NCBI GenBank assembly: GCA_003249035.1
Contig: QBMK01000013.1
Span: forward strand, 110,722-165,027
Direction: 5' to 3'
DNA: 54,306 nucleotides
DNA from: Pseudanabaena sp.
GTDB taxonomy: Bacteria; Cyanobacteriota; Cyanobacteriia; Pseudanabaenales; Pseudanabaenaceae
The translations under genes and the position numbers were made by a program. The notes beneath the pieces are model-generated. The model worked only from the letters and a program-made list of their open reading frames with translations, was not told the DNA's origin and did no database searches. Below are positions 1,957 through 36,811 of the stretch, piece by piece; the first letter of the stretch is position 1; each line of letters opens with the position of its first letter.

Positions 1957-2009
1957 AAAACCCAAAAGCGAGTTGCCGTGATTCTTGCAGCAAATCGCTT
2001 TTGGGTTTT
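1957..2009. repeat. Interrupted palindrome between gap2 and the cyclase gene
   Basis: The arms AAAACCCAAAAGCGA (1957-1971) and its inverse (1995-2009) enclose 23 bases. It lies upstream of the probable cyclase start at 2105. The TTG-initiated extension of the cyclase frame would have to translate part of this palindrome, which argues against that earlier start. Confidence 0.6.
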
Positions 2010-2104
2010 ATGTTTTAACTTACAGTGGCGATCGCTTAATAAAGCAATATCTCGGCTTTGGACAACAAAAAATAATAAAGCAACTTTTTTTATCGGCAAT
2101 AGCA

Positions 2105-4075
2105 ATGAAACTTCCTGCCACTTTAGTTAATTTCGGAGCGTTTTGTAAACGCAATCATCAGCAACTAGTTGCTGGATTGATTACGGTTTCGTTGACATTA
2201 GGGGTATTGGGCTTAAGGGAAAGTGGTGCTTTTAAGGAAATTGAACTTTGGGTTTATGACAGTTTGATGCGATCGCAGCTTAACGAACCACCTGATAACC
2301 GTGTGGTCGTTGTCGAAATTTCAGAAGCAGATATTCAAGATTTTTCTAAACTCTATTCTGAGCGATGGCCAATTTCGGATCGCTTATTTGCCAAATTAAT
2401 TAACCAAATTGCCGTTGCCAAACCCGCAGTCATCGGCATTGATAAATATCTGGATTTACCAGTTCTGGAAGGTCGTAGCGAGTTAGTTTCCGCAATTAAA
2501 AATGCAGGAAATGTAGTAAACGTCAAGTTTATTGCAATTGTAGCAGGTAGAAGTGGTGTCGATCCAGCAAAGGATTTGGAACCAATTAGCACCTATGGGT
2601 ATGTGAACTTACTCACTGACAAAGGAGCAGTTGTCCGGAGAGCTTCAATCGTTGGAGATTCAGGTTCTTTCGCCTTTGAGATCGCCAATTTATATTTAAA
2701 AAAATTGCACAACAAGACAATTGAATTTAACCCTACGGCAATTCAATTTACGGCTGGCAAACAAATTATTCCAAGGCTAACTGCAAATTACGGTGCATAT
2801 CGCAAGGAAGATGATAGTGGATATCAAATGATGATTCGCTATCGAGGAAAGTCGAGGGCTTTCGAGCATATACGCGCAACCGATGTACTAGAGGGGCGCG
2901 TTGCACCTGCAAAACTACGCGATCGCGTGGTGCTAATTGGTGTGACTGCGGAAAGTCTCAAAGATAGCTTTCCTACACCTGTCAATGTTGATGGAGAGGT
3001 GATGTATGGGGTGGAAATTCACGCAAATATTGTCAGTCAGTTGATCGCTAGCACTTTAGATGACCGCCGTTTTATGCAGGTTTGGTCAAATGATATCGAG
3101 AATCTCTGGATCGTGCTTTGGGCGATCATAGGTGGTGCGATGGCAGCATTTATTCCCCAAGCAGGTAAAAATATAGGGCTTTTAGTTCTCTTTTCTGGTG
3201 GTTTAGTTTGGGCTGGATATTTTGCTTTTAGTCAAGCTTTGTGGATCCCATTATTTCCTGCTCTGTTTAGCTTGATTTCGGCAAATGTACTAGTTATGGC
3301 TTATCAGCTTGCGATTCAGCAATCAGAACGCAAAGTCTTGATGGGCTTATTTTCGCGCCATGTCTCCAAAGAATTGGTCGATATCATATGGACTAATCGT
3401 GAGCAATTTATGGAAGATGGTCGCATTACGGGACAAGAAGTATATGTGACAGTCTTGTTTACAGATATGCGGAATTTTAGTACGGCTGCTGAAGCTCAAG
3501 CCCCTGGGGAGACGCTGAATTGGTTGAATAATTATTTGGGAACGATCGCTAATGAAGTACTAGCTCATGGCGGTATGGTTGATAAATATATCGGTGATGC
3601 GGTGATGGCGGTTTTTGGTGTGCCGATCCCCCATGGCAATGAGGCTGAACGCACCTGTGATGCTCAACGTGCAGTTGATGCAGCTTTAGCGATCGCCCAT
3701 AAACTCGCCGAGATGAATGACATATGGGTCGCAGAGGGTTTACCGCCAGTCACCACTGGGATTGGTATTAACTCTGGCATTGTGATCGCAGGTAGTTTAG
3801 GTAGTTCTGAACGTTTGGAATATTCAGTTTTAGGTGATACGGTGAATATCGCAGCTCGATTAGAAAGTTTTAATAAAGAGGTCGATGGTGGACCACATCA
3901 TATTTTGATAAGTGAAGATACACATCAGCGATTAGAGAATAATTTCCAAACTGAGTTTGTTGGCAAATATGCTCTCAAGGGAAAAAAACAAGAAACAGGA
4001 ATTTATCGGGTGTTAGATACACAAAAGAAAACTAGTCAACTTAGCCCAGCCAGTAACGCTGAACATAAGCAATAA
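2105..4075 (+). CDS. CHASE2-domain class III adenylate cyclase
   Basis: 656 residues from ATG 2105; the open frame extends to a TTG at 1985 but crosses a palindrome. A first membrane segment (about 20-35) is followed by an extracytoplasmic CHASE2 sensor domain (about 40-330), then two or three hydrophobic segments (about 345-420) and a C-terminal class III cyclase domain (about 445-630). FTDMRNFS and KYIGDAVMAVFG carry the two metal-binding aspartates, and DTVNIAARLES carries the conserved Asn and Arg. The Lys of KYIGD fits ATP rather than GTP as substrate. It should make cAMP in response to an unknown external signal. Its last 14 bases form part of the terminator stem. Confidence 0.9.
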   Translation: MKLPATLVNFGAFCKRNHQQLVAGLITVSLTLGVLGLRESGAFKEIELWVYDSLMRSQLNEPPDNRVVVVEISEADIQDFSKLYSERWPISDRLFAKLINQIAVAKPAVIGIDKYLDLPVLEGRSELVSAIKNAGNVVNVKFIAIVAGRSGVDPAKDLEPISTYGYVNLLTDKGAVVRRASIVGDSGSFAFEIANLYLKKLHNKTIEFNPTAIQFTAGKQIIPRLTANYGAYRKEDDSGYQMMIRYRGKSRAFEHIRATDVLEGRVAPAKLRDRVVLIGVTAESLKDSFPTPVNVDGEVMYGVEIHANIVSQLIASTLDDRRFMQVWSNDIENLWIVLWAIIGGAMAAFIPQAGKNIGLLVLFSGGLVWAGYFAFSQALWIPLFPALFSLISANVLVMAYQLAIQQSERKVLMGLFSRHVSKELVDIIWTNREQFMEDGRITGQEVYVTVLFTDMRNFSTAAEAQAPGETLNWLNNYLGTIANEVLAHGGMVDKYIGDAVMAVFGVPIPHGNEAERTCDAQRAVDAALAIAHKLAEMNDIWVAEGLPPVTTGIGINSGIVIAGSLGSSERLEYSVLGDTVNIAARLESFNKEVDGGPHHILISEDTHQRLENNFQTEFVGKYALKGKKQETGIYRVLDTQKKTSQLSPASNAEHKQ

Positions 4076-4116
4076 AAAAGGTGGTGCATCGCACCACCTT
4101 TTTTATTGCTTATGTT
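4062..4116 (+). terminator. Cyclase terminator whose arm includes the end of the CDS
   Basis: A 26-bp perfect stem with loop ATC has its left arm at 4062-4087 and its right arm at 4091-4116. The left arm begins 14 bases inside the coding sequence. So the last codons and stop of the cyclase gene are repeated in inverted orientation downstream, around a GGTGGTGC core. It may also end transcription of the convergent lipoprotein gene. Confidence 0.8.
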
Positions 4117-10892: not shown

Positions 10893-11478
10893 ATAGCTGC
10901 TGTTGAATATAAAGTTTGAGATGTTTTAATCCGCGTTCCATATGGGAAGCATCGCCATATAGTTTGCTGAGCATGACAGCACCTTCAATGGTAGCAATCA
11001 AAATTGTGGCAACAGTATCTGCATCAACCGTTGCCTGAAATTCACCACGCATTATGCCTTTGTCAACAATCCGCCGAATCAAATCACGCCAAGCATCCAT
11101 AGCTAGTTGCGATCGCTCTCGTAAAGCTGGATGAAAATCGTCACTCTCCACGGATGTATTCAGGATTGGGCAACCGCCTTGTATTGGTGGATTATCGAGG
11201 ATATTTTCGTAAACGCTAAGGATGGCAAGCAGACGATCTCCTGCATGACGTTTGCCTTTCAAAGCACCCATGAGTTTCTGTTGCACACAATTCACGGCAA
11301 AGTCGAATGCTTCTAGCGCTAATTCATCTTTGCTTTGGAAATGATTGTAGATGCCTCCTTTCTGTAATCCCGTTGCCCGCATCAAATCCGAAACGGAAGT
11401 CCCTGCATATCCTTGCTGATTAAACAAGGTCGCCGCTTGCTCGATAATACGTGTTTTAGTTTCTTGGGCTTTGGACAT
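10891..11478 (-). CDS. TetR-family repressor, probable electrophile sensor
   Basis: 195 residues. The N-terminal helix-turn-helix (about 8-52) contains GYAGTSVSDLMRATGLQKGG and IYNHFQSKDEL. The ligand domain has GGCPILNTSVESDD with Cys103; this GGCP block occurs in NemR/AcuR-like TetR proteins, where a cysteine senses electrophiles. An operator palindrome centred 16 bases upstream of the ATG implies self-repression, and the same palindrome precedes the downstream GST gene. The inferred role is repression of GST until an electrophile or aldehyde appears. The ligand is not readable from sequence. Confidence 0.92.
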   Translation of the reverse strand: MSKAQETKTRIIEQAATLFNQQGYAGTSVSDLMRATGLQKGGIYNHFQSKDELALEAFDFAVNCVQQKLMGALKGKRHAGDRLLAILSVYENILDNPPIQGGCPILNTSVESDDFHPALRERSQLAMDAWRDLIRRIVDKGIMRGEFQATVDADTVATILIATIEGAVMLSKLYGDASHMERGLKHLKLYIQQQL

Positions 11479-11486
11479 TTACATTT

Positions 11487-11502
11487 AAGACCGATCGGTC
11501 TT
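11487..11502. promoter_or_regulatory. TetR operator in front of its own gene
   Basis: A 16-base perfect palindrome, AAGACCGATCGGTCTT, starts 9 bases upstream of the tetR ATG. It is identical to the core of the GST operator. At this distance a bound dimer would cover the ribosome-binding site region and probably the transcription start. Confidence 0.85.
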
Positions 11503-11600
11503 TTTAAGACTAGCAAGAAGAATAGCAAAAGGCAAGATGCTGTCGTCTCATAGACGAGAACTTGCAAAAATCCCCTCTGATCGCTAACTGAAGGAAGTTG

Positions 11601-11706
11601 TTATACCAAAACACAAAATGGCGTAGCCATTTTGTGTTTTTAAAACCTTTACTAGGTTTGATTTTTAATTCACAAAAGTTTGACAACACTTTTGTGAATT
11701 GGAATT
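11601..11706. repeat. Double-hairpin repeat (family A), full copy
   Basis: TTATACCAAAACACAAAATG starts a hairpin with arms CACAAAATGGC/GCCATTTTGTG. The spacer TTTTAAAACCTTTACTAGGT follows, then a second hairpin with arms AATTCACAAAAGT/ACTTTTGTGAATT, ending GGAATTA. Its end touches the cysA stop codon, so it may serve as the cysA terminator. Confidence 0.8.
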
Positions 11707-12724
11707 AGATTGAATAATCTAGAGGAAATGACTTAGCATCCCTTGGTTCGATATGGACATATTGTTGTGGTTGTAACTTCAACTCATCAAAACGTTCACG
11801 AGTGAGATGAGCCGTCAAAACCTGCCCATCACCTAGCATCAACTCAGCTTGAACTTCCCAACCAAGATGAATCAGTCTGGTGATGCGTGCTGATACCGAT
11901 GTGCTAGTTGCCTCTGTCTCAACCAAAATATCGCGAGGACGAATATACACATCTTCACTAGCGCTATGGATTTTAGAGAATTCACTAATGCGATCGCGAT
12001 TGGCGGGAAGTACATTCACAGGTCCAATGAAACTCATCACAAAAGGAGTCGCAGGATTATCGTAAACTTCGGCAGGTGTGCCAATTTGCTCGATCTTCCC
12101 TTTATTCATCACCACGATGACATCTGATACTTCCATCGCTTCTTCTTGGTCGTGAGTGACAAATACACTGGTGACATGCACTTCGTCATGGAGTCGCCTC
12201 AACCATGCCCGCAGTTCTTTACGGACTTTTGCATCTAGAGCTCCAAATGGTTCATCAAGGAGCAATACGCTTGGCTGGACAGCGAGGGCACGGGCTAGGG
12301 CAACTCGTTGGCGTTGGCCGCCAGATAGTTGAGAGGGGTAGCGATTGCCTAAGCCTTTGAGTTGGATTAGTTCCAGCAATTCTTCGACGCGCTCGGCAAT
12401 TTTTGCTTTCGGCTCCTTGCGGATTTCTAGACCGAAGGCAATATTTTTGCGAATGGTCATGTGCTTAAAGAGGGCATAGTGCTGAAATACAAAACCAATA
12501 TTGCGATCGCGTACATCTTGATCGGTGGCATCCTTGCCAGTCAGAAAAATTTTGCCGCGATCGGGAGTTTCTAAGCCTGCAATCAATCTTAATAGAGTTG
12601 ACTTACCAGAACCTGATGGGCCTAATAGCGCCACTAATGAGCCAGTTTTGACCTCAAGATTGATATTGTCTAGGGCTAAAAAATCACCAAATTGCTTAAC
12701 TACATTTTCTACAACAATGCCCAC
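11705..12724 (-). CDS. cysA: Sulfate/thiosulfate ABC transporter ATP-binding protein
   Basis: 339 residues. It powers sulfate uptake with CysT/CysW and a periplasmic binding protein. Walker [10 protein letters not shown] is near 35-43, the Q-loop is in FVFQHYALF, the signature [15 protein letters not shown] near 137, Walker B VLLLDEP near 157, the switch His in [11 protein letters not shown], and a TOBE-like C-terminal domain follows from about 250. [10 protein letters not shown] after the ATPase domain is typical of CysA. The start is GTG at 12724. The permease genes are not adjacent. A family A repeat lies directly at its 3' end. Confidence 0.92.
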
Positions 12725-14779: not shown

Positions 14780-14912
14780 CAGCAATTCTCATTATAAAAA
14801 TTGGTTTGGATGAAAGTCCGCCGTCGGCGGACTTTCATCCAAACCAATTTTGGTGTTTCCAGCGCCTGATGCCCTGGAAACACCAAAATTGGTTTCATAA
14901 TTAGAATCGCTG
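14780..14912. repeat. Three-segment palindromic element upstream of tRNA-Arg
   Basis: Imperfect ends CAGCAATTCTCATTAT and its diverged inverse (14897-14912) bound two hairpins that share one arm. Segment 14797-14822 pairs perfectly with 14826-14851 (26 bp), while 14841-14862 pairs perfectly with 14874-14895 (22 bp). Because 14841-14851 is in both, the two stems exclude each other. Confidence 0.75.
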
Positions 14913-16480: not shown

Positions 16481-16557
16481 CTCTCTAACATCTGCATAGC
16501 TATCTGACCGTGAGATATACATCCTCAATAGCATCTCAAATCAGGAAGCAGCAAATT

Positions 16558-16702
16558 ATGTTTAACTTCACTTCAATGCAGATCCCTCGCTTACCTCTAT
16601 TTGGTATATGTGTAGCCGTAGCGATCGCAGCCATGCCCACCAAAGTATCAGCCCCCAAGCGATAGATTGTCCCAACTATTGGATAAATCCTAAAACAGGT
16701 CA
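16558..16702 (+). pseudogene. Frameshifted and truncated small secreted protein
   Basis: ATG at 16558 starts a clear signal peptide ending LFGICVAVAIAAMPTKVSA. The frame then stops at TAG 16663. Adding one C to the CCCCC run at 16652-16656 restores the frame and gives APQAIDCPNYWINPKTGQYV, a cysteine-containing mature part. So one base was lost in the C run. The gene is also cut off at about 16702, where sequence copied from the VOC gene at 18761-19171 begins. The function of the original protein is unknown. Confidence 0.65.
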
Positions 16703-16840
16703 GTATGTCATCATCGCATCGATTTTGCCATCTAGGCACTGTTCGTAGAACTTAAACACAGCTTCGCATTCATCGTTGAAAGAGAGATATGGACTTAATT
16801 TCATGATGGACTCCTTTGTTTTATTTGTTGATTTTTCTGT
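16700..16840 (-). pseudogene. Duplicated 5' end of the PhnB-like VOC gene
   Basis: Start codon at 16804, then MKLSPYLSFNDECEAVFKFY and EQCLDGKIDAMMTY, stop TGA. This is the first 34 residues of the VOC protein at 18761-19171 (MKLNTYLSFNDECEAAFKFY) with several substitutions. The shared DNA includes the upstream leader AAAGGAGTCCAT. The copy ends abruptly inside the secreted-protein remnant. It is a partial duplication that has had time to diverge, and it cannot make a complete domain. Confidence 0.8.
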
Positions 16841-16877
16841 GGAGTTGAGATCCCAATTACAAACAATTCCTGAAATG

Positions 16878-17375
16878 TTATCCAGCATAAGCCCGTTCTA
16901 GTTCAGCGATGTCAATCTTCTTCATTTGCAGCATTGCCGCGAAGACTCTTTGAGATTTTTCATGATCGGGATCGATCATCATCTCAATCAAAACGAGGGG
17001 AATAATTTGCCATGAAGCACCGAATTTATCCTTGAGCCAGCCGCACTGCTGAGCCTTTTCATCTCCGTCTTCAGACAGTTTCTCCCAGTAGTGATCGACT
17101 TCTTCCTGTGTTTCGCATTTAACTTGGAATGAAATCGCCTCATTGAATTTGTACATCGGACCACCATTGAGCGCCGTAAACGTCTGCCCATCAAGCTCAA
17201 ATGCAACGGTTAGAACCGATCCTGCGGGGTTGCCATGAACTTCCTGTCCAGCCTCACCATAATGACTGGTGGTTCCAATCTTTGAATTGTGAAAAATTGA
17301 AGTATAAAACTTAGCAGCTTCTTCAGCTTGACCGTCAAACCACATACAGGGAGTGATCTTTTGAATGATTTGCAT
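16878..17375 (-). CDS. VOC-superfamily protein (3-dmu-9_3-mt type)
   Basis: 165 residues with the vicinal-oxygen-chelate fold of the group once linked to 3-demethylubiquinone methyltransferase: ITPCMWFDGQAEEAAKFYTS at the start, SVLTVAFELDGQTFTALNGG in the middle, and WLKDKFGASWQIIP near 125. The actual substrate of this group is not known. The ribosome-binding site is AGGAG. It is the last intact gene of the ECF42 cluster, running away from the sigma factor gene on the same strand. Confidence 0.85.
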   Translation of the reverse strand: MQIIQKITPCMWFDGQAEEAAKFYTSIFHNSKIGTTSHYGEAGQEVHGNPAGSVLTVAFELDGQTFTALNGGPMYKFNEAISFQVKCETQEEVDHYWEKLSEDGDEKAQQCGWLKDKFGASWQIIPLVLIEMMIDPDHEKSQRVFAAMLQMKKIDIAELERAYAG

Positions 17376-17422
17376 TGTGCTTCTCCTATTAGATTTAGAT
17401 TGGGTGAGAAAACAAGAAATAT

Positions 17423-17832
17423 CTAGACTTGGTTAACTGCACTTGGCTCCATGAAAAAGATTTCCCAAATGTGACCATCTAAATCTTGGAATCCATGCTG
17501 GTACATAAAACCATGATCCTTGGGTTCGTTATAAGCGGTTCCACCCGCCGCGATCGCCTTGGCTACGAGATCGTTAACTTCAGCTCGGCTTTCATAAGAT
17601 AAAGCGATAAGCACTTCCGAACTCTTGGCAGTGTCGCAAATTTCTTTGGGAGTAAAGGTCTTGAAAAATTTCTCGACGAGTAGCATGGAAAATATATTCT
17701 CTCCAATAATCATGCAGGCGGCATTGTCGTCTGCATGATTATTGGAGAGAATGTGAAGCCAAGATGGGTAAAGAACTCAATGGATTTATTGAGGTCCTTT
17801 ACCGGTAGATTGACAAAAATTTGACGAGTCAT
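17423..17832 (-). pseudogene. Glyoxalase-like VOC gene broken by an inverted-copy mutation
   Basis: From ATG 17832 the frame reads MTRQIFVNLPVKDLNKSIEF and FTHLGFTF, then diverges and stops at TGA after 41 codons. From 17713 another frame reads MIIGENIFSMLLVEKFFKTF and the rest of the domain (96 residues). Family members read about DDNAACMIIGEN at the break. Here a perfect 22-base inverted copy of the following sequence replaces the expected codons, and the total is 410 bases, so the frames do not join. The 96-residue piece may still be translated but lacks the first beta-alpha unit. Confidence 0.8.
17696..17752. repeat. Perfect 22-bp hairpin inside the broken VOC gene
   Basis: The arms ATTCTCTCCAATAATCATGCAG (given here for its first 20 bases: ATTCTCTCCAATAATCATGC) at 17696-17717 and its exact inverse at 17731-17752 enclose 13 bases. 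The left-arm copy makes coding sense on the minus strand (CMIIGEN); the other arm does not. This is the signature of a template switch. Confidence 0.85.
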
Positions 17833-17904
17833 CGTTTTCTCTTCTGAAATTTAACTCACGTAGTTTGCACTTAGAGAAGCATTGCTTTAGCTTTCAGCTA
17901 TTCT

Positions 17905-18252
17905 CTAGCTTTCAAGTATTATGTCAAAACCACCATAAATCAGACGCTTGCCGTCAAAGGGCATGTCCTCTGGTTTCATTCGGGGATCTGCCATTACCAT
18001 CTGATTCCCGCGATCGCGAACTTCACGAGAAGGCCAGACGATCCATGAAAAAACCACGGTTTCGTTTTCCTCGCATTTAACTGCCATTGGAAAAGAAGTT
18101 AGCTTTCCGTCAGGAACATCATCTCCCCAACATTCGACCACTTTGAGCGCACCGTATTCCTTGAACAAAATGGCTGCATCTTCAGCCATTTTTTGATAAG
18201 CTACACGATTTGCAGTCGGTACTGCTAGGACAAATCCATCTACATAATTCAT
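17905..18252 (-). CDS. DUF1428 family protein
   Basis: 115 residues starting MNYVDGFVLAVPTANRVAYQ, with ALKVVECWGDDVPDGK and VVFSWIVWPSREVRD; these blocks are typical of DUF1428, a ferredoxin-like fold family of unknown function often encoded near DGPF and VOC proteins. RBS AAGGAGAAC precedes the ATG. The gene sits between the SRPBCC gene and the broken VOC gene on the same strand, within the ECF42 cluster. Confidence 0.85.
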   Translation of the reverse strand: MNYVDGFVLAVPTANRVAYQKMAEDAAILFKEYGALKVVECWGDDVPDGKLTSFPMAVKCEENETVVFSWIVWPSREVRDRGNQMVMADPRMKPEDMPFDGKRLIYGGFDIILES

Positions 18253-18321
18253 GAAAGTTCTCCTTACTTAAATTGACGATTGATTGTTTATTTCAAAATT
18301 CAATTAGCAATCTCATAGGTA

Positions 18322-18732
18322 CTAATTTTTAGACTCAACATGCTTCGCAAAATTATTTAAGATGCTTTGCCAGCCTTGGCGTTGCTGTTCACCTGCATTC
18401 TGAGACTCGGCATCAAAAGTTTCTTCTACTTTTACGCCATTTTCAATGAGTGAGAACTCAATGACTACCGATCGCCCATCCGCCATTGAAAACTCAATTA
18501 GTTGGTTTTCAATCACTTTTGAGAATGTTCCGCCAAAGTCAAAGCCCATGCTTCCATCTTTTGCTTCCATTCTTGAGGAGAAAGTTCCACCCACTCTCAA
18601 GTCAACTGCACTCTCAGTAGTATGCCAATCTTCGGATGCCGCATTCCACTGTTTGATGTCTTCGGGGTTGTTCCAAGCCAGCCAGACCTTATCTAAGTCA
18701 GACTTGATGGTGGTTTCAATACTTATTTTCAT
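18322..18732 (-). CDS. SRPBCC/AHSA1 domain protein
   Basis: 136 residues from ATG 18732 (AGGA 8 bases upstream; an upstream TTG at 18753 is less likely). It is a START-like helix-grip domain of the AHSA1 group: IETTIKSDLDKVWLAWNNPE, KQWNAASEDWHT, LRVGGTFSSRMEAKDGS, and the C-terminal GEQQRQGWQSILNNFAKHVE helix. Such proteins hold hydrophobic ligands; the ligand is unknown. It lies between the PhnB-like VOC gene and DUF1428, 28 bases from the former. Confidence 0.85.
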   Translation of the reverse strand: MKISIETTIKSDLDKVWLAWNNPEDIKQWNAASEDWHTTESAVDLRVGGTFSSRMEAKDGSMGFDFGGTFSKVIENQLIEFSMADGRSVVIEFSLIENGVKVEETFDAESQNAGEQQRQGWQSILNNFAKHVESKN

Positions 18733-18760
18733 TTCTGTGTCCTCAAAATTCAACTTTTGT

Positions 18761-19171
18761 TTAGGCAGGTAGATCGCAGTTAATCATCCATGGTGTGCCA
18801 AAGCGATCGACAAGCATCCCAAAACGAGCTGCCCAGAAGGTTTCTTGGATTGGCATTTGCACTGTGCCGTTTTCTGCCAAGGCGCTAAAAATCCGCTCGG
18901 CTTCATCAGGATCGGTAAATACAAGCGATACTGAGAAACCCTGTGGTTTTTCAAAGTAATTAGGCGGAGCATCGGAACCCATCAGGACTGTATCGCCCAC
19001 GATGAGCGAGGCATGCATGATTTTGCCATGCTTTTCAGGGGGCGTTTGCTCCGCCATGGGTGAATCTCCGTAGGTCATCATCGCTTCGATTTTGCCACCT
19101 AGGCAATGCTCGTAAAACTTAAAAGCAGCTTCGCATTCATCATTGAAAGAGAGATATGTATTCAACTTCAT
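18761..19171 (-). CDS. PhnB-like VOC protein
   Basis: 136 residues, a full VOC domain of the PhnB/DUF1338-like small group: YLSFNDECEAAFKFYEHCLG, HGKIMHASLIVGDTVLMGSD, and FWAARFGMLVDRFGTPWMIN. PhnB-like proteins are frequent near ECF sigma factors and DGPF proteins. The metal-binding set is hard to assign without alignment. The ribosome-binding site is AAGGAGTCCATT. A diverged copy of its leader and first 34 codons lies at 16700-16840. Confidence 0.88.
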   Translation of the reverse strand: MKLNTYLSFNDECEAAFKFYEHCLGGKIEAMMTYGDSPMAEQTPPEKHGKIMHASLIVGDTVLMGSDAPPNYFEKPQGFSVSLVFTDPDEAERIFSALAENGTVQMPIQETFWAARFGMLVDRFGTPWMINCDLPA

Positions 19172-19460
19172 AATGGACTCCTTTGTTTGATTTAATGATT
19201 TTGTTTGCGTTTTCTATGGATTTAAGGTGCTAATTTAAATCCTCTACTATTTAGTCGAACTGAGGTTCATGAGATCGACAGGTTGCACAAACTTTTTTTG
19301 AACAGCTTGTACTGTTTTAGCTTTCAGGTTTGTATGACGATTCCATCGATTCTCCAGTAAATATTGAGTAAATGGCTCATCATGATCGCAACTATATAGC
19401 CGAAGGTTTATGACGCGGTTAAGAATCCCTTTAACAATTTCATATTCCTTGGTTTTGTAG

Positions 19461-34899: not shown

Positions 34900-34952
34900 T
34901 AGTTACGAATAAAAAAGGCGGCGCAATGCGCCGCCTTTTTTATTCGTAACTA
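34900..34952 (-). terminator. hemE terminator whose arm contains the end of hemE
   Basis: 26-bp arms with a single-base centre (34900-34925 and 34927-34952, core GGCGGCGCA). The right arm covers the last 13 bases of hemE including its stop, so these are copied inverted downstream. Followed by A/T-rich DNA. Confidence 0.85.
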
Positions 34953-35980
34953 AGCCCCTTAACGGTCTCAAAGAAGAATCTTGCATTATCTTCAGGAGTG
35001 GTAGGCAAAATACCATGTCCAAGGTTCATGATATGTCCCTTGTTTCCAGCTTTGGCGACAACTTCGAGAATACGTTCGCGAATATAACTTTGGTCAGCAA
35101 ATAGAACACAGGGATCGAGATTGCCTTGGACAGGAATCTGACGACCAATGCGATCGCGTGCGTCAGCCATATCAACTGTCCAGTCAACACTGACAATATC
35201 CACACCAGACTTAGACATTAGGTCTAGGACACCTGCACTACCGCTAATGTAAAGGATCAATGGGGTGTCAGGGTACTTTGCCTTAACCTTATCAACAACC
35301 ATCTTTTGGTAAGGCAGTGCAAAAGTTTTATAGTCAGTTGGGCAAAGATGTCCTGCCCAAGAATCGAACATTTGGACGACTTGAGTGCCGCACTCAATCT
35401 GGTGGATCACATAAGTGCCGACCATTTCGGCAATTTTAGTCAAAAAGCTATGGATTATCGCTGGTTCTTTATATGCCAAAGCTTTGATTACAGAATAATC
35501 CTTAGAGCCTTTGCCTTCAACTGAATAAGCGGCTAATGTCCAAGGTGCTCCCACAAAGCCAAGAATAGTTGCTTGATCTTTAACTTCTTCTTTGATCGCA
35601 CTTAAAATCTTGCGAATAAAAGGAACGGCAGTGTCGGGATCAAACTCGGTGAGCGCGTCAACTTGAGCTTGAGTCCGAATTGGCGACTCGATAATTGGGC
35701 CACGACTTTCGATGATGTCAAAGTTGATGCCAATACCTGTAAGCGGAGTGAGGATATCGGAGAACATGATCACGCCATCGGGTTGGAAAGCGCGAAATGG
35801 TTGCAAAGAAATTTCAGCGGCGAGTTCGGCAATCTCCGATCGCTCTCTAAAAGTGGGATATTTGTCGCGCAAGTCACGATACACCTTCATGTATCTTCCT
35901 GCTTGGCGCATCATCCATACTGGTGGACGATCCAGTACTTCACCTCTTGCTGCCCTTAGCAAGCGATCATTTCCTCCCAT
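34940..35980 (-). CDS. hemE: Uroporphyrinogen decarboxylase
   Basis: 346 residues from ATG 35980 (a TTG two codons earlier is close to AGGAAAG). It removes four carboxyl groups from uroporphyrinogen III to give coproporphyrinogen III for heme and chlorophyll. [13 protein letters not shown] near 19-31, [25 protein letters not shown], and the C-terminal [18 protein letters not shown] are family signatures; the catalytic Asp is in FSDIL. It stands alone on this strand. Confidence 0.96.
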
Positions 35981-36229
35981 AATCAACTCTTTCCTGTGTT
36001 TTTAAACTTTTTTATTATTGTGCTTTTGAATTATAGAACGTGACGTACCCGACACCAATAAAGACAAGTGGGGCACTTGCCGCCCCGTTGGTCTTTCATC
36101 ATTGCCAAATCCTAGAGTTAGCCATCGGTTCATGTCCAAATTTAGGCTTTATTTAACTTCTGAACGCGATTTGACAACTTATACTTTCTTTAAGATATGT
36201 TATTAATACTTAAGCTATAAAATCAAGAA

Positions 36230-36341: not shown

Positions 36342-36776
36342 GTGATTAATGAAGGGGCAAATTTGACAAAGGATGCTGATGTAGTCGCAGATACTACTTC
36401 AGATCAAGCACTGCGATCGCCTGAGACAAAGTCGTCTCTACAAACTGTGTTGGCGATCGCTGTCACTTTTGTTATCGTCGCGATCGCGATCTTATTATGG
36501 ATATTTCGTCCACCACTTGATCAATATACTCAATCAGTCTTAAATCTATCGGGAGATCCCGTGCAGGGGCGTTCGATTTTTGTGATGAACTGTGTGGCAT
36601 GTCATGGTCAATGGGCGAATGGCAAAGTCGGACCTAATTTGCATGGTGTATCCTATCGCAAGTCCGATGCGCGTCTAGTCCAACAGGTTGTAAGCGGCGA
36701 AACTCCACCAATGCCCCAGTTTCAACCCAGCTCTCAAGATATGGCAGATTTGTTGAGTTATCTAAAACAGTTATAA
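36342..36776 (+). CDS. cytM: Cytochrome cM
   Basis: 144 residues from GTG 36342. One membrane anchor (about 34-55, AIAVTFVIVAIAILLWIF), then a class I c-type cytochrome: heme site CVACHG near 85, GPNLHGVSYR, and the distal Met in TPPMPQF. CytM is a low-abundance cyanobacterial cytochrome that helps suppress photosynthesis or respiration in some conditions. The N-terminal 33 residues are longer than I remember for other CytM; a later start is possible. Its last 8 bases lie in the terminator stem. Confidence 0.88.
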   Translation: MINEGANLTKDADVVADTTSDQALRSPETKSSLQTVLAIAVTFVIVAIAILLWIFRPPLDQYTQSVLNLSGDPVQGRSIFVMNCVACHGQWANGKVGPNLHGVSYRKSDARLVQQVVSGETPPMPQFQPSSQDMADLLSYLKQL

Positions 36777-36811
36777 AAAAAGACGAGCCTTGCTCGTCTT
36801 TTTTTATAACT
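36769..36811. terminator. cytM terminator with arm inside the CDS
   Basis: A 20-bp stem (arm AGTTATAAAAAAAGACGAGC, loop CTT). The left arm includes the last 8 bases of cytM. It lies just beyond the end of the convergent rph gene and probably serves both genes. Confidence 0.8.

Follow-up and report, generated by a model that had tools for sequence, protein, structure and literature searches.

How does a conserved gene come to carry, in place of some of its own codons, an inverted copy of the codons next to them? This question is raised by a VOC-family gene in the window, by which we mean the whole 54,306-nucleotide stretch of Pseudanabaena sp. DNA analyzed here. The gene is split into two out-of-frame pieces (Table 1), and the original prediction ascribed this to a perfect inverted copy that displaced the codons expected in a VOC gene. 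The sequence bears out this description: the 22-base arm at 17731-17752 is the exact inverse of 17696-17717 (22/22 nucleotides complementary, with 13 nucleotides separating the perfect arms), and the minus-strand reading of 17717-17696 is C-M-I-I-G-E-N, as claimed. If two mismatches are permitted the arms lengthen to 28 nucleotides around a center of one nucleotide, and the chance expectation of perfect 22-nucleotide arms (loop 0-40) in 410 random bases of equal composition is about 1e-9. The family assignment likewise holds, with the N-terminal half matching the Pfam Ble-like_N model and full-length relatives, annotated as VOC or glyoxalase, found on Chroococcidiopsis and Nostoc plasmids (66 and 64% identity). 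Among the best 80 of 575 relatives from a scan of species genomes, the top two share 78 and 77% identity with the gene and come from cyanobacterial assemblies. The predicted total length of 410 bases is correct; that of the uninterrupted form would be 408 nucleotides rather than the 411 given.

Table 1. Coordinates, in the window, of the broken gene, its parts and neighbors, and the gene-end palindromes discussed in the text
Feature	Position	Strand	Remarks
Broken VOC-family gene	17423..17832	-	410 nt; from homologue alignment, halves out of frame
N-terminal half, 40-aa ORF	17710..17832	-	Native to Phe28, then out-of-frame tail; Pfam Ble-like_N, E 3.5e-8
C-terminal half, 96-aa ORF	17423..17713	-	Starts at native Met of CMIIGEN; alone without Pfam match
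Source of copy, 21 nt	17696..17716	-	With G17717 added, the 22-nt arm of the original prediction
Inverted copy, 21 nt	17732..17752	+	17732-17748 new; alignment with 14 relatives; putative switch points
GAAT, microhomology at return	17749..17752	+	Fits ancestral Phe28/Thr27 codons
Putative hairpin seed	17717..17731	+	Six pairs, two of them G.T wobbles, between 17717-17722 and 17726-17731; loop 17723-17725
Intact neighbor, PF06983 (3-dmu-9_3-mt)	16878..17375	-	Pfam
Intact neighbor, DUF1428	17905..18252	-	Pfam
Gene-end palindrome, arm 26	4062..4116		Includes the final 14 nt of gene 1985-4075
Gene-end palindrome, arm 26	34900..34952		Includes the final 13 nt of gene 34940-35986 (-)
Gene-end palindrome	36769..36811		3' end of gene 36342-36776; concerted-arm test

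The intact form of the site is well defined by the relatives. In a DNA alignment with 14 of them, Phe28 and Asp34 are separated by five codons, mostly N-P-Q-F-T, and five residues occupy this site in all 82 distinct homologues compared, with NPQFT itself in 43 (the set comprises the best 80 of the 575 relatives, the intact copy from genome G030 and that from Chroococcidiopsis, the Nostoc sequence being a duplicate record that was dropped). All but two of these homologues (L034 and L071) are full-length and gap-free, and 81 of the 82 lack an internal stop. The longest perfect arm at their site measures 10 nucleotides, in 2/82, versus 22 in the window gene; the ancestral sequence has thus been replaced in one lineage only, with no such arm in the 82 homologues. 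As C17731 is the first base of a conserved Asp codon, it is ancestral, and the copied tract is therefore 17732-17752, or 21 nucleotides, the last 3-4 of which are equally compatible with the ancestral codons. The true exchange is of 17 nucleotides (TCTCCAATAATCATGCA, the inverse of the codons just downstream, which encode CMIIGEN) for 15, a net gain of two that shifts the frame. Away from the replaced site we saw no stop and no second frameshift. The gene is presumably inactivated by the break.

We propose that a single replication template switch of the quasipalindrome type very probably broke the VOC gene, and probably did so recently. Quasipalindrome template-switch mutation, for which Ripley 1982 is cited, has been followed in E. 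coli with thyA and lacZ reporters, and the use of the nascent strand as template is described as established there (PMC7202029). The exact inverted copy that marks this process is seen here over the full 22-nucleotide arm. On such a mechanism, the nascent plus strand would have stalled past the Asp-Asp-Asn-Ala-Ala codons, folded back through a 6-bp seed around a 3-nucleotide loop and templated itself for 21 nucleotides, 17716-17696 being copied into 17732-17752. It would then have re-annealed to its proper template through the 3-4 nucleotides GAA(T) common to the Phe28/Thr27 codons, leaving 17 nucleotides in place of the 15 that encoded N-P-Q-F-T or a variant of it, a +2 frameshift and a hairpin. 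By an alternative route, the switch could have gone to the other strand and run in the reverse direction, with an identical product; the strand, seed and switch points of the event, and its origin in replication, are what we infer from its outcome. The putative seed, an imperfect inverted repeat read from the present-day sequence, opposes GGCGGC and GTCGTC on the plus strand, forming six pairs that include two G.T, and an E35D change that strengthens it may be earlier or coincidental. The resulting hairpin has 22 perfect pairs, or 30 on the plus strand if wobbles are counted, and with RNA parameters its fold energy is -47.6 kcal/mol on the plus strand (3-nucleotide loop) versus -37.1 on the minus strand (larger loop).

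The VOC break belongs to an already known class of mutation. Like the E. coli quasipalindrome mutations, it displays an exact inverted copy of adjacent DNA, a more perfect hairpin and a frameshift (PMC7202029). Unlike the reporter cases, it comes from a wild cyanobacterial genome, and it combines a weak putative seed (6 bp, two wobbles) with a 21-nucleotide tract, whereas in the reporters the change is of 4 bp and adjoins a quasipalindrome of 18 bp (PMC7202029). It offers a clean natural example in which the source, the likely seed and the likely return point can all be read.

The original prediction also held the event to be recent, which agrees with the constraint seen on the remainder of the gene. 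With the replaced site excluded, dN/dS between the window gene and G030, L008 and L009 is 0.081, 0.093 and 0.134 (that is, 0.08-0.13), and among these three themselves it is 0.051, 0.055 and 0.097, all being rough values at a dS of 0.8-1.7. For the Chroococcidiopsis gene dS is infinite against both the window gene and G030, and dN/dS against L008 and L009 is 0.075 and 0.082. The slightly higher dN/dS of the window gene could reflect some relaxation preceding the break. Because constraint on the remaining sequence still seems to be in place, the arms are perfect and there is no further stop or frameshift, the break is probably recent. Among relatives, G030, which belongs to a different genus of the family, carries an intact VOC copy adjoining the same PF06983 gene, the single copy besides the window's in the 38 genomes of the family searched, but positions 17300-18300 of the window matched none of 25 other genomes of the genus at E <= 0.001. 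None of these 25 supplies an allele near the ancestor, so both the seed and the sequence as it stood before the event are reconstructions.

The VOC gene is flanked by intact small genes, coding for PF06983, DUF1428, AHSA1, PF06983/Glyoxalase and YCII proteins; 14-kb stretches of the genomes G015 and G019 hold related cluster genes and no VOC match. Positions 16707-16856 are a remnant, at 97-98% identity, of the PF06983 gene of G015 and G019, severed beside the block 16857-19202. This arrangement suggests that the block was acquired or swapped in, and the locus is, by all appearances, in flux. At 16488-16856, this 150-nucleotide remnant is fused to a gene that a deletion and a homopolymer difference (+2 C with respect to G015) have cut short, and the full PF06983 copy at 18762-19202 is 90% identical to the G015/G019 gene.

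Could the break be an artefact of assembly or amplification, with a chimeric read or an inverted amplification chimera in the consensus and the gene intact in the cell? The original prediction sensibly raised chimeric reads as a caveat. Chimeras are frequently inverted, the genome is a draft in 60 contigs, and the neighboring gene at 16510 also shows the homopolymer difference with respect to G015. Nevertheless, we regard this as improbable: two switch points lie 21 nucleotides apart with an exact return to the downstream sequence, about 24 kb (31 regions) compared with the ORFs of relatives yielded no frame-split match, and perfect hairpins are abundant in the genus, the single-contig genomes G007 and G022 included, so that such structures are real there. 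The lack of frame splits across the same roughly 24 kb also led us to reject a general tendency to frameshift errors as the explanation. It is most improbable that the break is tolerated or used, with the halves serving as two coupled proteins or being rejoined by frameshifting. The ATG of the C-terminal half does overlap the TGA of the N-terminal half (ATGA, 17713-17710) and the remainder of the gene is intact, but this second start, the native Met, is buried in a paired hairpin arm, and inspection by eye revealed no ribosome-binding site or slippery heptamer directly upstream. Insertion of a mobile palindromic (REP- or MITE-like) element is scarcely credible: though the genome has dispersed-looking palindromes and encodes two Y1_Tnp genes, and REPs are able to extend over genes and furnish their stop codons (PMC3733652), the 21-nucleotide arm, allowing up to two mismatches, lacks the many dispersed copies of a REP or MITE and occurs at two places only in the 95.5%-complete assembly (a single match on each strand, the two lying at the VOC site), and both arms are the VOC gene's own codons, with 15 nucleotides lost.

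A single template switch thus being our preferred account of the VOC break, its main value lies in its setting, a genus in which perfect gene-end hairpins are common and several of them track the neighboring codons. We counted 15 perfect hairpins with arms of at least 18 nucleotides and loops of up to 20 in the 54-kb window, 47 in 400 kb from its genome, and 33 and 29 in 200 kb each of G007 and G022; the 21 other cyanobacterial loci (246 kb) yielded 7 and the 14 proteobacterial loci (173 kb) yielded 1. This amounts to 12-28 per 100 kb in the genus versus 2.8 in the other cyanobacterial loci, the control loci being pieces around VOC homologues picked from 80 loci and not random genome samples. 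By a crude ORF caller, which counts the broken VOC gene as intergenic, 61 of the 62 palindromes of the window's genome are intergenic and one is partially so. Loss of SbcCD found no support as a cause of this abundance, since the hairpin nuclease SbcD is present in 26/26 genomes of the genus and hence is not missing.

Gene 3' ends are overlapped by palindromes (perfect arms of at least 12 nucleotides, loop of at most 12, covering at least the last 5 nucleotides of the gene) in 15/344 cases in the window's genome, 5/156 in G007 and 3/135 in G022, versus 0/259 and 0/170 in the two control sets; overlaps with gene starts in the same series number 4, 1, 1, 1 and 0. Within coding sequences, inverted repeats with arms of at least 12 nucleotides exceed synonymous shuffles by 4 to 0.5 in the window's genome, 3 to 0.2 in G007 and 2 to 0.1 in G022, a weak signal that recurs in the other cyanobacterial loci (1 versus 0.3). 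Two palindromes considered as a second in-gene case, L107 15087-15139 (22-nucleotide arms) and L091 3481-3554 (74 bp), were rejected after ORF reading, as each lies upstream of the likely true start of its gene; by eye, these genes code for RuvC-like and hydrolase-like proteins, respectively. The L091 palindrome has no loop and stands directly upstream of the hydrolase-like gene.

The loops of these hairpins are themselves biased. Across the window's genome, G007 and G022, 71 of 115 loops of three nucleotides (arms of at least 14) are GNA or TNC, versus about 12.5% expected, a count possibly inflated by repeat families; GAA and GTA are the commonest of the GNA type. GNA loops closed by G-C pairs, as in GCGAAGC, form extraordinarily stable DNA mini-hairpins (PMC4686876), and the excess hints at folding at the level of DNA. 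The loop of the VOC hairpin is ATT, not GNA.

If the arms of gene-end palindromes are rewritten by copying, the downstream arm should follow the last codons of the gene in each species. We compared the match between each coding end and its own arm with that to permuted arms (10,000 permutations) at the six of 16 gene ends in the window's genome that had enough orthologues among the fetched loci. For genes 1985-4075 and 36342-36776, with a palindrome at the stop in 16/23 and 17/23 orthologues, no permutation reached the observed match; for gene 34940-35986 (11/24 orthologues) 15 did so, and for L091 12974-13726 (6/13) 50. At two further ends, L102 17283-17996 and L102 18015-18977 (5/20 orthologues each), the permutations reached it 2142 and 1156 times. 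The downstream arm therefore mirrors the species' own last codons beyond permutation at four of the six ends and not at two, in sets whose own member was picked for having the overlap and with permutations that ignore phylogeny. In the 36342-36776 set, 9 of 17 arms mirror 8-13 nucleotides of the final codons of their own gene, and these codons differ between orthologues (CAG/CAA, TTA/CTA). G015 (CAACTATAA) and G019 (CAATTATAA) differ in one codon base and its downstream mirror, the core being identical. A test across eight genomes agrees: 6.5 nucleotides are mirrored in the own arm versus 4.0 in an orthologue's arm, a difference reached in 0/5,000 permutations, with 11 of 51 orthologue groups kept (38 members after merging identical ones), the stretches surrounding four of the same places and three convergent pairs being counted from both sides. 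Many orthologues have no gene-end overlap, and some gene-end arms resemble dispersed elements through which a new stop codon was introduced.

Continual rewriting by template switching would explain this tracking. Hence, we tentatively posit, at a little short of an even chance, that template switching is frequent enough in the genus to build and continually rewrite perfect gene-end hairpins, the final codons of the upstream gene being the source from which the downstream arm is copied, a form of concerted evolution. GNA-loop cores may start the fold-back, and the VOC gene would be collateral damage caught soon after the event. The original prediction had likewise classed the VOC break with the gene-end palindromes, offering a common mechanism as a possibility. 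That link has gained support from the four ends at which arms track their own terminal codons, and a cause shared with the VOC break is a step further that we infer.

For the gene-end palindromes alone, it is quite conceivable, if somewhat doubtful, that selection for strong terminators acting in both directions maintains the perfect arms, or that these arms arrive as mobile palindromes supplying a stop codon. By eye, many gene-end palindromes have A-tract/GC/T-tract symmetry, arms are common to convergent gene ends, and outer motifs such as AAACCCATAA recur; the two ends without tracking beyond permutation, the Y1_Tnp genes and the ability of REPs to provide stop codons (PMC3733652) also fit. 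Arms can, however, run past the T-tract, and in the 36342-36776 set they follow the varying, aligned last codons beyond it, the paired change between G015 and G019 sparing the hairpin core. A terminator role is not to be assumed in any case, because canonical intrinsic terminators are reported at only 22% of transcription units in Synechococcus elongatus (PMC13289151). The gene-end palindromes resemble REP elements in lying near or over gene ends and being able to supply stop codons (PMC3733652); they differ in that many of their arms are locus-specific, and the VOC arm is unrepeated and drawn from the gene's own codons.

Rewriting by template switching has parallels elsewhere. Short template-switch mutations are described as creating and maintaining RNA hairpins, and have been proposed to keep stems paired (PMC8794818). 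As there, a single event here yields a new hairpin; those cases concern RNA genes, whereas the VOC event disrupts a gene for a protein and the genus-wide pattern lies at gene ends. The word "terminator" has no occurrence in the text of PMC8794818. In the mitochondria of Nematomorpha, coding palindromes occur for which template switching is named as one possible mechanism (PMC6649704). They share with our cases perfect inverted repeats in coding DNA, with both arms changing in concert; ours are bacterial, sit mostly at gene ends and have short loops, and the VOC event destroys the gene. In the open-licence literature, covered mostly as titles and abstract openings, we found no paper describing hairpins at bacterial gene ends as being maintained by template switching. 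The genus is a good place for studying template switching, as its gene-end hairpins may be shaped by the same process. The origin and upkeep of perfect stems are a long-standing puzzle in RNA stem evolution, and the genus could permit a direct test of how such stems arise and persist.

Several further observations concern the palindromes of this genus. At convergent genes both arms are coding, so that the last codons of two genes mirror each other, as in L284 10837-11271 (+) with 11299-12060 (-) in G015 and in L285 in G019. The two Y1_Tnp transposase genes (G000:C40:4494-4862 and G000:C57:37803-38111) are possible movers of the dispersed palindromes. At 14797-14895 of the window, two long perfect palindromes with arms of 27 and 22 nucleotides share 11 nucleotides of arm, which gives the impression of an inverted copy laid down beside an earlier one.
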